From contig CANJLW010000028.1 in NCBI GenBank assembly GCA_947475245.1, forward strand, positions 1 through 58,821: DNA of 58,821 nt, in the 5' to 3' direction. Made by a program: the position numbers and the translations under genes. This stretch comes from Acetobacteraceae bacterium. GTDB lineage: Bacteria > Pseudomonadota > Alphaproteobacteria > Acetobacterales > Acetobacteraceae. This document shows, in pieces, positions 38,837-58,821 of this stretch (its first letter is position 1; every line of letters begins with the position of its first letter). Below the pieces are notes generated by a model. The model saw only the letters and a program-made list of their open reading frames with translations, was not told the origin of the DNA and did no database searches.

Positions 38837-39054
38837 GCGGTCAGGTCTCGATCAAATGAAGCTCTCCCCCCAAAGGACATCCATTGGGGATATCCATCGG
38901 GGAGCGGCGGGAGCGCGAAACGCTCCGGGTGAGGGAGGGCGCACTATCTCACCATGCGCCCCCCGGTTTCTAGCCCCGCCCCGCGCGTTGGCAAGGCGAT
39001 CGTGTCCGGGTGTGGGCGGGTCCTGGCTTCGGGCTTTGGGTAGGCAGTTTCTCT

Positions 39055-39661
39055 GGGTGCATAGGGTTCTTCCACCGGGATACGCGCTTCGGCCGCGCGG
39101 GCATGTCGGGTGGGTCGGTGCTTGTCTGCCGAGCGTTGGTTTTGGCTGGGAGGAAGGCTGAGTTTCCGGGAGGTCGCGGAGCTTGGGCTTCGCCCACTGA
39201 GTCTCAGGGCGCATGAGGTTCTTCCGCCGAGAAAGGCGCTTCGGCCGCAGGCAGGTGGGAGGGGTCGGTGCCGGGTTGCCGGGTTTTGATTTTGACTGGG
39301 AGGAAGGCTGAGTTTCCAGGAGGTCGCGGAGACGGGGCTGCTCGGCCTGGGTCTCAGGGCGCATGAGGTTTTTCCGTCGCGAAAAGCGCTTTGGCCGCAG
39401 GCAGGTGGGAGGGGTCGGTGCCGGGTTGCCGGGTTTTTTGATTTTGACTGGGAGGCAGGCTGAGTTTCCAGGAGGGCACGGAGACGGGGCTGCTCGGCCT
39501 GGGTCTCAGGGCGCATGAGGTTTTTTCGTCGCGAAAAGTGCTTCGGTCGCGCGGACGTCCCGGGATGGGTCGGTGCCGGCTTGCTGGGTTTTGGTTTTTG
39601 CTGGGAGGGAGGCTGAGTTTCCAGGAGGTCGCGGAGGCGTGGCTGCGCGGCCTGGGTCTCA
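39055..39661. repeat. Four tandem ~151-bp repeats (minisatellite)
   Basis: Using the anchor gggcgcatgaggtt (gggtgcatagggtt in the outer copies), units begin at 39055, 39207, 39357 and 39509, and a further partial unit begins at 39662. Spacings are 152, 150, 152 and 153 bp. Each unit contains ggtgggaggggtcggtg-like text, a ctgggagg-aggctgagtttcc block and a gaggtcgcggag block. The two middle units are the most alike. Weak similarity continues upstream to about 39000. Unit lengths are not constant multiples of three, which argues against a repeat protein. Confidence 0.8.
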
Positions 39662-40010
39662 GGGTGCATAGGGTTTTGTTCGCGGGGGGCGAGATTGGCG
39701 CACGCGGGGCGATCCCAACCCTCCGTGCTCTTCGCGATCCTTTGACTTCCTTTGTGTTGAATCCTGAGACGGTGATCCAGACTCTCACGGTGCAAGGGGT
39801 TTTTCCGCTCGGAAACGGGCACGCGCGGAACAGGGGGTTCGCGGCAGGTTTCGGCCGCGCCTTCGTCATTCCAGTGTCGGGCAGACCATACGGCCGAGCG
39901 CATGACGGAGCGCCGGTCGGGGGGCGACGGGGAAGACGGGGGCATACGCAGGGGTTCGGCCATGCAAGGGTACTACCCAAACGCCGACAGCGCGCCAATC
40001 GTTGCGTGAT

Positions 40011-43980: not shown

Positions 43981-44529
43981 GTGGCGATAAATTCCATTGC
44001 TGTTTTTTGTGGATCTCGGGCGGGCGCCGATCCCGCCTATGCCGATGCCGCGCGTGCTTTGGGGCGTGGTTTGGCGGAGTCCGGCATTCGATTGGTTTAT
44101 GGCGGCGGGCGGGTTGGCATGATGGGGATCGTGGCCGACGCGGTGCTGGCGCATGGCGGGGCGGTGCTGGGGATCATCCCCGAGTTCCTGATGCGCAAGG
44201 AGGTCGCCCATCGCGCGCTGACGGAGTTGATCGTCACCGACAGCATGCACAGCCGCAAGGCGCGGATGGCGGCGGAGGCCGACGCTTTCCTGTGCATGCC
44301 CGGCGGGTTGGGTACGTTGGACGAGACCCTGGAAATTCTGACCTGGCGGCAATTGGGATTGCACGCGAAACCGGTCCTGCTGTGCGATGTCGGCGGTTGG
44401 GTTCGGCCCTTTGTCGCGGCTTTGGAGGCATCGGTGACGCAGGGCTTCGCCGCCGCCGAGGTGTGTGCGTATTACGAGGTTCTGAGCGATGTGCCCGCCG
44501 TGTTGGCACGCCTGGGCGCCGAGCGCTAA
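43981..44529 (+). CDS. LOG-family protein (TIGR00730, lysine decarboxylase-like)
   Basis: The 182-aa protein has a GTG start with AAGGA 9 nt upstream. Motifs are V-F-C-G-S-R-A-G-A-D-P near the N-terminus, G-G-G-R-V-G-M-M-G at 41-49, S-R-K-A-R-M at 91-96 and P-G-G-L-G-T-L-D-E at 107-115. This is the Lonely Guy signature, with phosphoribohydrolase activity on cytokinin nucleotides or purine nucleotides. The older annotation as lysine decarboxylase is usually wrong. Its stop codon lies within the first unit of the small-ORF array. Confidence 0.9.
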   Translation: MAINSIAVFCGSRAGADPAYADAARALGRGLAESGIRLVYGGGRVGMMGIVADAVLAHGGAVLGIIPEFLMRKEVAHRALTELIVTDSMHSRKARMAAEADAFLCMPGGLGTLDETLEILTWRQLGLHAKPVLLCDVGGWVRPFVAALEASVTQGFAAAEVCAYYEVLSDVPAVLARLGAER

Positions 44530-44561
44530 CGATTGCTTAGGATGTTGGTGTCAGAAATGGA

Positions 44562-44590
44562 AACGCCGACGGAATTGGTCCGTCGGCGTT
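44562..44590 (+). promoter_or_regulatory. 5' hairpin of array unit 1
   Basis: AACGCCGACGG pairs with CCGTCGGCGTT (11 bp) around AATTGGT. It ends 5 nt before the AGGAGG ribosome-binding site, so it is in the 5' leader of the small ORF and could control ribosome access or RNA stability. Confidence 0.75.
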
Positions 44591-44608
44591 CAACCAGGAG
44601 GTGCAGAG

Positions 44609-44689
44609 ATGCTCAACCATCTCATCCTCTTGCTCCTGATCATCGTGATTCTTGGCATCGAAGTCAAGATTACGATGAAGCGGAAGTAA
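44609..44689 (+). CDS. Small hydrophobic membrane peptide, array copy 1 (type I toxin-like)
   Basis: A 26-aa peptide starting M-L-N-H-L-I-L-L-L-L and ending E-V-K-I-T-M-K-R-K. Residues 5-17 are almost entirely I, L and V and can span a membrane; the tail is strongly basic. AGGAGG is 7 nt upstream. I do not recognise the family. Length, hydrophobicity, tandem copies and flanking hairpins resemble the Ibs, Ldr and TisB type I toxins, but small stress or complex-stabilising membrane peptides look the same. Differences between the three intact copies are synonymous or conservative in the membrane segment, which suggests selection on the peptide. Confidence 0.7.
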   Translation: MLNHLILLLLIIVILGIEVKITMKRK

Positions 44690-44695
44690 GGGCCG

Positions 44696-44719
44696 GGCCG
44701 GTCCATACGTGGACCGGCC
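44696..44719 (+). terminator. 3' hairpin of array unit 1
   Basis: GGCCGGTCCA pairs with TGGACCGGCC (10 bp) around TACG, 6 nt after the small-ORF stop. There is no T-run. It may be a terminator or a stabilising 3' end. Confidence 0.6.
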
Positions 44720-44828
44720 TACCCCTGGTGCCACCACGCGGGTTACGGGCGTCGGCGAGGGCGAACGTGCGGCGCTGGAAGCGGTGCGGGCGCTAACGAT
44801 TGCTTAGGATATCGGTGTCAGAAATGAA

Positions 44829-44858
44829 AACGCCGACGGGAATGAGCCCGTCGGCGTT
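44829..44858 (+). promoter_or_regulatory. 5' hairpin of array unit 2
   Basis: AACGCCGACGGG pairs with CCCGTCGGCGTT (12 bp) around AATGAG. The loop differs from copies 1, 3 and 4 while the stem is kept and lengthened by one pair. Confidence 0.75.
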
Positions 44859-44876
44859 CAACCAGGAGGTGCAGAG

Positions 44877-44957
44877 ATGCTGAACCATCTCATCCTCTTG
44901 CTCCTGATCATCGTGATGCTTGGCATTGAAGTCAAGATTACGATGAAGCGGAAGTAA
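44877..44957 (+). CDS. Small hydrophobic membrane peptide, array copy 2
   Basis: 26 aa, identical to copy 1 except for Met instead of Ile at position 14; the other nucleotide differences are synonymous. It has the same AGGAGG spacing, the same basic C-terminus and its own hairpins on both sides, so it looks like an independent expression unit. See copy 1 for interpretation. Confidence 0.7.
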   Translation: MLNHLILLLLIIVMLGIEVKITMKRK

Positions 44958-44963
44958 GGGCCG

Positions 44964-44987
44964 GGCCGGTCCATACGTGGACCGGCC
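44964..44987 (+). terminator. 3' hairpin of array unit 2
   Basis: The same 10-bp stem and TACG loop as unit 1, 6 nt after the stop. Confidence 0.6.
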
Positions 44988-45090
44988 TACCCCTGGTGCC
45001 AGCGTGTGGGTTTGGGGCTTCGACGAGGTCGGACACGAGGCGGAAGGCCAGGCGCTAACGATTGCTTAGGATATCGGCGTCAGAAATGGA

Positions 45091-45119
45091 AACGCCGACG
45101 GAATTGGTCCGTCGGCGTT
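45091..45119 (+). promoter_or_regulatory. 5' hairpin of array unit 3
   Basis: Identical stem and loop to unit 1 (11 bp, AATTGGT). Confidence 0.75.
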
Positions 45120-45137
45120 CAACCAGGAGGTGCAGAG

Positions 45138-45218
45138 ATGTCCGCACATCTCATCCTCTTGCTTCTGATCATTGTGGTTCTTGGCATTGAAGTCAAGATT
45201 ACGATGAAGCGGAAGTAA
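45138..45218 (+). CDS. Small hydrophobic membrane peptide, array copy 3
   Basis: 26 aa starting M-S-A-H-L-I-L-L-L-L; positions 2-3 (L-N in copy 1) have become S-A, and Ile14 is Val. The membrane core and the tail E-V-K-I-T-M-K-R-K are unchanged. The replacements at the N-terminus show that the polar start can vary while the hydrophobic core and basic end are kept. Confidence 0.7.
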   Translation: MSAHLILLLLIIVVLGIEVKITMKRK

Positions 45219-45224
45219 GGGCCG

Positions 45225-45248
45225 GGCCGGTCCATACGCGGACCGGCC
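45225..45248 (+). terminator. 3' hairpin of array unit 3
   Basis: GGCCGGTCC pairs with GGACCGGCC. A single T-to-C change opens the tenth pair seen in units 1 and 2, leaving a 9-bp stem. Confidence 0.55.
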
Positions 45249-45351
45249 TACCCCTGGTGCCACCGCGCGGGTTTGGGGCGTCGACGAGGTCGGACACGAG
45301 GCAGAAGGCCAGGCGCTAACGATTGATTAGGATATCGGCGTCAGAAATGGA

Positions 45352-45380
45352 AACGCCGACGGAAATGGTCCGTCGGCGTT
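45352..45380 (+). promoter_or_regulatory. 5' hairpin of array unit 4 (truncated unit)
   Basis: AACGCCGACGG pairs with CCGTCGGCGTT around AAATGGT. The unit keeps its leader, hairpin and AGGAGG but has lost the 3' part of the ORF and the second hairpin, so a transcript started here has no local stop before rpsF. Confidence 0.7.
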
Positions 45381-45398
45381 CAACCAGGAGGTGCAGAG

Positions 45399-45426
45399 AT
45401 GCTAACCCATCTCATCCTCTTGCTCC
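45399..45426 (+). pseudogene. Truncated small-peptide gene, array copy 4
   Basis: The start M-L-T-H-L-I-L-L-L matches the intact copies, with the same Shine-Dalgarno site. After about 45426 the sequence departs completely (next residues P-G-S-T-G-G). The frame then stays open without a stop for about 100 codons and enters rpsF in frame at 45720. It is a broken copy of the peptide, or the start of an N-terminally extended S6. Confidence 0.65.
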
Positions 45427-45719
45427 CGGGATCGACAGGGGGACGCCACCGTCTCACACCGGTCGCCCAACCGCCATTCCCGAGGCCTGGAACGCCACGT
45501 CGGACCCCACACCCAACCCGACCCACTCACGCTATCACGCCCTACGCGCCGGGAATCCCGCCGCGAACGACAAAACGACATTGCGTCCCCACCGAAACCG
45601 TGCTTCAAGCCCGCCCTTCCCTGCCGGGAGCGACGGCATCTCTCCCGGCTATGCCCAGCGTCCATCCCGGACGTGGCCCGACACAGGCCAGGGCAGAGAT
45701 AAGCCAGAGGGGTGCATTC
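45427..45719 (+). other. Leader region of the rpsF operon
   Basis: These 293 bp between the truncated array copy and rpsF hold no gene that I can support. The sequence is C-rich and non-repetitive. I looked for an S6-S18 leader binding structure and could not define one with confidence. Confidence 0.4.
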
Positions 45720-46184
45720 ATGCCGCTATATGAAACCATACTGATCGCGCGCAACGACGTGACGCAGCAGCAGGTCGAGACCATCGCCGACGAAATCGGC
45801 GCGGAACTCGAAGCCGACGGCGGCGCCGTTAAGAAGCGCGAATACTGGGGCCTGCGCGGCCTCGCCTACCGGATCAAAAAGAACCGGAAAGGCCACTACA
45901 TGCTCCTCGGTCTCGACGCCAAGCCCACCTTCATCAAGGAAATGGAGCGTAAGCTCGGCCTGAACGAAGACATGCTGCGCTTCATGACCATCCGCGTCGA
46001 AGAAATCGAGGAAGCGCCCTCGTCGATCCTGTCGCGCAAGTCCGACGAGCGTGAACGCACCTTCCGTGGACCGAAACCCGCCGGACGCTTCGAAAGCGGC
46101 CGCCGCCGGGGCTTCGACGACCGTGAAGAATTCCGCGCGCGCGACGAAGGCGTGCCCGACTTCCGCGCCGGGCTGGAGGAGTAA
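45720..46184 (+). CDS. rpsF: 30S ribosomal protein S6
   Basis: The product is 154 aa from the ATG at 45720, which has GAGGGG 8 nt upstream. The N-terminus M-P-L-Y-E-T-I-L-I-A-R is the S6 start, and G-L-R-G-L-A-Y-R-I-K-K-N-R-K-G-H-Y is the typical core. A charged C-terminal tail of about 45 residues, common in alphaproteobacteria, makes it longer than E. coli S6. It heads rpsF-rpsR-rplI. The same frame is open upstream to the truncated small-peptide copy at 45399. Confidence 0.97.
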   Translation: MPLYETILIARNDVTQQQVETIADEIGAELEADGGAVKKREYWGLRGLAYRIKKNRKGHYMLLGLDAKPTFIKEMERKLGLNEDMLRFMTIRVEEIEEAPSSILSRKSDERERTFRGPKPAGRFESGRRRGFDDREEFRARDEGVPDFRAGLEE

Positions 46185-56492: not shown

Positions 56493-58500
<2,008 letters not shown>

Positions 58501-58821
58501 ACGCGCATGATGCCGGGGGGCGTACGCGGTGTCAAATTATGTTGGGGGTGGGTGGAGAGCGGACCGTTGGAGTTCGGCCTGCGGGTTGTGGCCGGCACTT
58601 TCGTGCGGCGCGGGAAGCAGGATTGGCGCGGCAGATCGGACGTGTTTCTGTTTCGCACTGGATTTTCGCAACACGTAAAGCTTTATTCCTAACCCACCTT
58701 ATTCATCGCATGCCAGGGATTCGTTGGCGGGCGTAGCGTAATCGTCTGATTTGATGCAGAGATTTGGGTGTCGAGACCAACATCTGCCGAATCGGACGGT
58801 GCCACACCCGCCATGGTCGAA
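58501..58821. other. Upstream region of the thiC riboswitch
   Basis: The last 320 bp contain the thiC promoter but no gene that I can support. Short reading frames occur on both strands without a ribosome-binding site or recognisable product. A locally AT-rich patch near 58670-58700 may belong to another promoter. Anything upstream of thiC continues beyond the window. Confidence 0.5.
58507..58535 (-). promoter_or_regulatory. Sigma-70-like promoter of thiC
   Basis: On the minus strand, TTGACA (58535-58530, a perfect -35) is followed after 17 nt by CATCAT (58512-58507, four of six matches to TATAAT). Transcription would start near 58500, exactly at the beginning of the riboswitch, which supports the call. 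Confidence 0.65.

Follow-up and report, generated by a model that had tools for sequence, protein, structure and literature searches.

In Escherichia coli, the Ldr/Rdl and Ibs/Sib loci hold short hydrophobic peptide genes in tandem or in multiple copies, accompanied by cis antisense RNA. The type I toxin-antitoxin systems that appear closest to the locus described here are AapA/IsoA and hok/Sok. As these are described in PMC6733600 and PMC8309996, AapA/IsoA is present in several chromosomal copies in Helicobacter pylori and its relatives and encodes a 30-amino-acid (aa) membrane peptide with charged ends; its mRNA has a stable 5′ stem-loop and is silenced at full length by a 5′-3′ interaction with a 3′ anti-Shine-Dalgarno (anti-SD) sequence, and IsoA is an 80-nt cis antisense RNA opposite the open reading frame (ORF). 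In the same accounts the hok toxin has 52 aa and a second frame, mok, lies upstream of it (PMC8309996), while the 3′ end of the hok mRNA takes part in keeping translation off and 3′ processing activates it (PMC8309996, PMC6733600). Cationic C-termini are given there as common to several type I toxins (PMC8309996). Here we describe a tandem array of small-peptide cassettes at positions 44523–45426 (plus strand) of a 58,821-nt stretch of DNA (contig CANJLW010000028.1, the whole of which we call the window) from a freshwater bacterium of a Rhodopila-like genus in the Acetobacteraceae. Read from its sequence, the cassette is built like a type I toxin-antitoxin module, with putative toxicity, two putative transcripts and putative CtrA binding, and we consider it likely that the units form a new family of self-contained modules of this type.

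The array is not a product of chance. Tandem Repeats Finder (TRF) delimits it at 44523–45426, with a period of 261, 3.4 copies and 90% matches, and the ungapped repeats have start-to-start spacings of 268, 261 and 261. An initial annotation had proposed three complete units of about 262 bp and one truncated unit, which TRF, the repeat search and the sequence itself bear out. The design that it gave for the unit (5′ hairpin, AGGAGG, 26-codon ORF and 3′ hairpin) also recurs as described: in the window the 5′ hairpin has 12 bp, the Shine-Dalgarno sequence (SD) is AGGAGG, the 3′ hairpin has 10–11 bp, and each intact ORF comprises 26 codons plus a stop. The cassette unit measures about 205 bp and is ordered, from 5′ to 3′, as a CtrA-like box, an A-rich stretch, the 5′ hairpin, the SD, an ATG (in a few cases GTG), the ORF, its stop codon, the 3′ hairpin and a tail.

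Searches with tblastn and a covariance model recovered intact copies in other genomes and at numerous further loci. Of 98 genomes, 23 (the window's own among them, and every one from the window's genus) have a tblastn match to the peptide (E ≤ 1), and a profile of 23 peptides (E ≤ 0.1) reached 26 of the 33 genus genomes and 9 of 150 family genomes. On the fetched loci, a nucleotide profile identified 98 units at ≥70 bits. An ORF stands in the expected place in 95, and the other three were dropped; 86 of these ORFs encode 25, 26, 30 or 31 aa and a further one encodes 27 aa, the nine of other lengths than these 86 being excluded from the selection analysis. The 86-unit set used in the tests below excludes ORFs over 32 aa, repeats and units without a full tail. 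A covariance model built on 40 representatives yielded 214 matches (E ≤ 0.001) in 29 of the 33 genus genomes; this figure is summed from the per-genome table, and the weaker matches may include chance or opposite-strand ones. The window's own genome has 18 matches to this model, 15 of them listed as full-length. Among 299 sampled family genomes, 38 match the model at E ≤ 0.001, and with only matches above 40 bits counted as real, 11 genomes of 7 other Acetobacteraceae genera carry the family outside the genus. In 385 genomes sampled across the class, including a few from the same family, a run with stricter filters recovered only the window's own at E ≤ 1e-6. When named genomes were scanned for an exact pattern, 34 stretches came up, under titles that include Rhodopila, Acetobacteraceae, Asaia, Rhodospirillales and Acidisphaera sp. 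S103; the pattern fits 38 of the 95 units, so the scan misses most members.

The unit ORF is, by the pattern of its substitutions, a real gene under purifying selection. In 40 disjoint pairs, the ratio of non-synonymous to synonymous changes (pN/pS) comes to 0.55 in the frame of the ORF and to 1.17 and 1.35 in the two shifted ones, and the substitutions at codon positions 1, 2 and 3 number 132, 98 and 186. The frame is thus kept and not broken at the neutral rate, which, together with the copies elsewhere, supports the multi-copy family of small, type I toxin-like proteins that the initial annotation had put forward. In the window the three 26-aa ORFs are located at 44609–44689, 44877–44957 and 45138–45218 (plus strand), identified from sequence and, for the first two, tblastn; pN/pS bears on the first and the peptide profile on the third. 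The N-terminal change from L-N to S-A is real and gives copy 3 its MSAHL... start. All 127 distinct peptides are net positive, with charges from +1 to +9, and 91 contain a 15-residue stretch with a mean hydropathy of at least 2.0 (one of the 127, from L203, is probably the wrong frame of a decayed copy). The window's three peptides exceed 3.1 over 15 residues. Selection and composition together describe the short, hydrophobic, cationic ORF that would be expected of a type I toxin.

The ORF is embedded in conserved RNA structure. The 5′ hairpin is present in 95 of 95 units and lies 13–23 nt before the ATG. In the window it occupies 44562–44590 in copy 1 (12 bp, recognised by covariation and a T-tract, and close to where the plus-strand transcript would start), 44829–44858 in copy 2 (sequence, terminator scan and folding) and 45091–45119 in copy 3 (sequence and repeats). 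The 3′ hairpin follows on the plus strand at 44695–44720 (sequence and covariation), 44963–44988 (sequence and folding) and 45224–45249 (sequence). RNAalifold found both hairpins in the 40 representatives, with two-sided changes in 18 of 24 pairs. For a named structure that adds a start-codon hairpin and a mid-ORF hairpin, two-sided changes are seen in 23 of 36 pairs, compared with 10.4 ± 1.6 after shuffling (0/500), and sliding the partners of this structure destroys the signal. The predicted copy 2 transcript with some flank (44826–45008) folds at −99 kcal/mol; its dinucleotide shuffles reach −60.4 ± 4.0 kcal/mol (z −9.55). In the start-codon hairpin (GAGATG/CATCTC at 44606–44623 in copy 1, plus strand, from covariation and folding), the three bases before the start codon and the start codon itself pair with codons 4–5, and its outer pairs score 92/120 versus 77.8 ± 3.1 when shuffled (0/2000). 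Where the upstream bases are ACG instead of GAG, the fifth codon is often CGT and not CTC, which places Arg for Leu. This co-change makes it appear that RNA pairing chooses the amino acid at position 5.

Strong covarying hairpins, multiple copies, tandem dispersal and the decay of some copies could also describe a structured non-coding RNA or a mobile repeat, similar to repetitive extragenic palindromes (REP) or miniature inverted-repeat transposable elements (MITE), in which the ORF is incidental. Such a reading is very improbable in view of the frame-specific selection, of the 87 units out of 98 whose ORF has a start, a stop and 25–31 codons, of the spacing between hairpin and ATG, and of structures that cluster at the SD and start codon.

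Of all single results, the specificity of each SD for its own tail is the strongest. In the window, the SD region ACCAGGAGGT (44593–44602 in copy 1, plus strand) pairs across the ORF with the tail ACCCCTGGT (44721–44729); one A is bulged out, and the duplex is present in the minimum-energy fold as well as in the centroid fold. The corresponding tails lie at 44989–44997 in copy 2 (tail-swap test and folding) and at 45250–45258 in copy 3 (tail-swap test). For 86 units, the duplex with the own tail has −11.0 kcal/mol versus −8.9 ± 0.23 kcal/mol with swapped tails (0/1000); for the 40 representatives the values are −11.03 and −8.70 ± 0.35 kcal/mol (0/2000), and four control segments put through the swap test give z from −0.7 to 1.3. 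Since the idea came from the first loci, it was retested on 40 regions fetched afterwards. These gave 55 profile hits, 51 with an ORF, and 37 units entered the duplex test after the exclusion of those out of the length range, those with unclear hairpins or tail, and repeats, with near relatives among the 37 kept. Here the gap was larger, with −13.53 kcal/mol for own and −9.82 ± 0.46 kcal/mol for swapped tails (0/2000). The predicted probability that the SD is unpaired is 0.20 with the tail and 0.49 without it, and that of the AUG is 0.12 (means of 40). Prediction and covariation therefore describe what would be an inert transcript with an occluded SD, and prediction and the tail-swap test point to long-distance 5′-3′ sequestration of the kind described for AapA/IsoA.

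Set beside AapA/IsoA by design, as far as the published descriptions go, the cassette resembles it in its multiple copies, a small peptide with a putative place in the membrane, a 5′ stem-loop and a predicted SD sequestration between the 5′ and 3′ parts, and would also have a cis antisense RNA, predicted at about 80 nt. It differs in its bacterial class, its tandem arrays, its CtrA-like box and the lack of any matching family model; moreover, here the start-codon hairpin appears to fix residues 4–5 and the antisense promoter codons 19–20. As in the accounts of hok, the mRNA 3′ end is proposed to keep translation off and 3′ trimming to activate it. Unlike hok, no mok-like upstream frame was seen in the cassettes, for which no systematic search was made.

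Codon choice near the end of the ORF points to a promoter on the opposite strand. Val19-Lys20 is encoded by GTC AAG in 90 of 95 units and by ATC AAG in four of the other five, and the preceding lysine is AAA in 68 of 76; in the genome, GTC, AAG and AAA have usages of 0.48, 0.74 and 0.26. The pentamer TCAAG is invariant in 40 of 40 aligned units and sits at its usual position in 45 of the 47 later ones. In one conservation count over 40 rows, at least two (L097 and L060) were aligned one codon off, which makes its V19/K20 figures slightly low. On the minus strand the GTC AAG region reads CTTGAC, the alphaproteobacterial −35 consensus. A scan of 44400–45720 detected three sigma70-like sites where 0.4 were expected, all on the minus strand and one per intact copy: TTGACT-N17-GATGAT at 44639–44667 (copy 1, where conservation also supports it) and 44907–44935 (copy 2), and TTGACT-N17-AATGAT at 45168–45196 (copy 3). 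Minus-strand sites of at least 8/12 are found in 73 of 86 units versus 45.7 ± 3.7 with synonymous codons randomised, and those of at least 9/12 in 30 of 86 versus 12.2 ± 2.9. Among the later units, the figures are 32 of 43 versus 22.8 ± 2.1 and 19 of 43 versus 7.7 ± 2.1. By these comparisons the predicted antisense promoter is conserved beyond codon choice. The mid-ORF hairpin (codons 15–16 with 19–20) was considered as the cause of the fixed GTCAAG and rejected, as GTCAAG is kept even in units unable to form this hairpin; an antisense −35 is the better explanation.

The 5′ hairpin could end the antisense transcript. At least four T in eight positions flank it on the minus-strand side in 33 of 40 units and on the plus-strand side in 4 of 40, so that hairpin and T-tract resemble a minus-strand terminator. 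From the promoter within the ORF to this hairpin, an antisense RNA of about 80 nt over the ribosome-binding site is predicted; in copy 1 it would extend over 44553–44632 (minus strand), with ends taken from promoter and terminator.

A box of the form TTAA-N7-TTAA with up to two mismatches precedes 81 of 86 units (8.3 expected from base shuffles) and is perfect in 6 of 86. In 78 of 86 units it lies 37–39 nt before the 5′ hairpin, a distance that would put it at the −35 position, as in a CtrA-regulated promoter. The window's intact copies have it at 44526–44540, 44793–44807 and 45055–45069 (plus strand). That of copy 1, CTAA-N7-TTAG, has two mismatches to TTAA-N7-TTAA and overlaps the stop codon of the upstream gene at 43981–44529, which we take to be LOG-family-like. 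Most CtrA-activated promoters of Caulobacter carry a single CtrA site at −35, according to the description in PMC11264516, and by analogy the box may belong to CtrA.

None of the databases searched places the cassette in a known family. Over the array, Rfam gave nothing at the gathering score and weak matches only (E 0.93 or worse); no Pfam family matched any of 32 peptides at E ≤ 1; NCBIfam returned only TatA-type models at chance level (E 0.31 or worse); and the PDB held no solved-structure match. The cassette is therefore filed under no known family. Pfam and NCBIfam, as we assume, include the Ldr, Ibs, Hok, Fst and TisB families, and no curated model for any of these matched in either database; nor did an AapA match appear in the two, should they contain a model for it. 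The comparison with Ldr/Rdl and Ibs/Sib in the initial annotation accordingly stands for gene design, that is, tandem or multicopy short hydrophobic peptide genes; it does not extend to family membership, the cassettes, unlike those loci, having no Pfam or Rfam match and NCBIfam matches at chance level. The broader likeness to type I systems also fits the SD-pairing tail, the start-codon hairpin and the predicted antisense promoter and terminator. Among the papers searched, a set outside which Fozo et al. 2010 could list relatives, we found no type I toxin described in Acetobacteraceae and nothing relevant on toxin-antitoxin systems of Rhodopila or on CtrA with type I toxin-antitoxin systems.

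The units are solitary or in tandem and flanked by differing genes. Some neighbours recur among loci, which suggests shared ancestral sites, and none is common to all loci, the neighbours having been compared with each other only, as unnamed genes. This bears on what the peptide might do. It could be a regulated small membrane protein without toxicity, such as a stress, respiratory or envelope modulator, kept off by the same mRNA switch: purifying selection and the narrow length range would suit it, a cell-cycle-type promoter box would suit a physiological role, and toxicity is a prediction only. We regard this as rather unlikely, given the many copies per genome (15 listed as full-length among the 18 in the window's own), the divergent sequences and in-ORF antisense promoter, which fit toxin modules better, and the lack of a common neighbour. 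For the same lack of a common neighbour, the initial annotation's alternative of a subunit of a respiratory or stress complex is neither supported nor excluded. Finally, the positive charge of every peptide would also be compatible with an antimicrobial or signalling peptide, either secreted or active at the envelope, with self-protection through tight translational control. The antisense architecture, in cis and for each copy, and the absence of a neighbour that recurs at all loci (a transporter or immunity gene being possible among the unnamed ones) make it extremely improbable.

If the units are type I-like modules, they may work as follows. The plus-strand transcript would begin at the 5′ hairpin or slightly upstream of it, with the CtrA-like box in the −35 place of its promoter, and would encode a cationic hydrophobic peptide, usually of 25–27 residues, acting at the inner membrane. 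At full length the message would be silent, with its 3′ tail paired to its own SD across the ORF and the small hairpin covering the start codon. Loss of the tail through trimming would free the SD in most units. Meanwhile, the minus-strand promoter within the ORF would make an RNA of about 80 nt across the start codon and SD, ending at the 5′ hairpin. This RNA could bind whichever message has been activated and so block or destroy it. The peptide would be made only once the antisense RNA is depleted relative to the message, and would then slow or depolarise the cell.

Several observations weigh against such modules. With regard to the ORF, a pN/pS of 0.55 is moderate constraint only, and a subfamily with ...LKLLLRIVVKIDVKVK... 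is charged throughout, its best 15-residue hydropathy being about 1.3–1.4; it may be amphipathic and not membrane-spanning. With regard to the mRNA, the start hairpin is weaker in the later units (66/111 versus 55.7 ± 3.5, 4/2000), and the mid-ORF hairpin shows no two-sided change, with 74% of cells paired. Only 5 of 40 SDs bind their own tail better than any other tail (median rank 7.5), in 4 of 40 units the AUG is largely open, and in 14 of 40 the predicted openness of the SD gains less than 0.1 when the tail is removed. In these 14 the SD stays closed because the ORF or leader pairs with it, and such pairing might act as an additional lock of local reach, comparable to the SD hairpins of aapA3 (PMC6733600). 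No unit of 40 has four T in eight after the 3′ hairpin, so the tail's inclusion in the mRNA is deduced from its complementarity. On the antisense side, the −10 is weak (56 of 86 units have sites below 9/12), and the antisense RNA is a prediction only; the terminator scan of the window's array gave one site versus 1.0 in shuffles. The strict pattern TYAA-N7-TTMA finds none of the window's own boxes, because each carries two mismatches, and the promoter scan gave no sigma70-like plus-strand site in the array. It is worth stressing that related copies are not independent, so that counts overstate events.

The array is followed from 45720 onward by what we take to be rpsF. Copy 4, which is truncated (45316–45426, plus strand, from sequence), has its box at 45316–45330, 5′ hairpin at 45352–45380, SD at 45386–45391 and ATG at 45399; after nine codons it breaks off at 45426, without antisense promoter, 3′ hairpin and tail. 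A ribosomal-protein leader was considered in view of the position before rpsF and rejected: 29 of 29 other rpsF loci have neither a unit nor a LOG-like gene (30 rpsF loci were among the matches listed, of 31 matches in 32 genomes searched; 1.5 kb was fetched per locus, with less upstream DNA in L153, about 250 bp, and L165, about 1.44 kb). As the order LOG-array-rpsF is found at 0 of these 29, the truncated copy probably marks the end of a rearrangement. Its start codon opens a 261-codon frame (45399–46184, plus strand) that runs stop-free into rpsF in frame; the leftover promoter could drive rpsF, and the continuity of the frame may be chance. A phage or plasmid origin was also rejected, with no match in phages or plasmids, and no viral contig matched the exact pattern, which fits only the 38 units mentioned.

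Other copies are altered or divergent. At 135–197 of the window (minus strand) a relict cassette retains the 5′ hairpin, SD and start codon, and its downstream part is broken. Decayed or altered copies are found at L026, L009, L061, L025, L083, L019, L051 and L039, as well as L031, L090 and L020; the usual stop is read through, the start is lost, or a frameshift or deletion has occurred, and other DNA appears to interrupt L019. Within the window's own genome, L227 (G000:C21:16896-17582) comprises three divergent tandem copies of 28–29 aa with the core ...KALVIILRR, in which SD-tail pairing is kept. Among the public metagenome-assembled genomes, the titles 'Nitrosovibrio sp. Nv4' (CALQHT020000234.1) and 'Asaia bogorensis' (CAMCDA01/CAMBXJ01) look unreliable. 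Elsewhere in the window, a second tandem array of about four copies of 150 bp (39050–39669) is apparently unrelated, and a thiamine pyrophosphate (TPP) riboswitch at 58378–58504 (minus strand; 54.8 versus the Rfam gathering score of 54.3) precedes a minus-strand ORF at 56493–58325.

A wider proposal, which we put forward tentatively and think may well not hold, is that of a lineage-specific superfamily of Acetobacteraceae type I toxins under the cell-cycle and motility regulator CtrA. About 80 nt of DNA would be read in three ways, as peptide, mRNA switch and antisense promoter; the needs of the RNA, and not those of the protein, would dictate His4-Leu/Arg5 through the start hairpin and the codons of Val19-Lys20 through the antisense promoter; and the expansion to at least 15 copies in one genome would make toxin release cell-cycle-gated.

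Type I modules easily escape detection, since the toxins have little sequence in common and are too short for routine annotation. Here, 214 model matches in one genus make it possible to derive a large part of the RNA mechanism from covariation. The record of Acidisphaera sp. S103 is not titled a metagenome assembly, so this carrier is presumably a cultured one, in which the predictions are open to experiment. The cassettes add an apparently undescribed family in the Acetobacteraceae and suggest that the 5′-3′ silencing of hok and AapA has arisen again elsewhere. If CtrA really binds the box, these peptides would be linked to the alphaproteobacterial cell cycle, and CtrA control and toxicity, if true, would make the family more than a new type I-like one.

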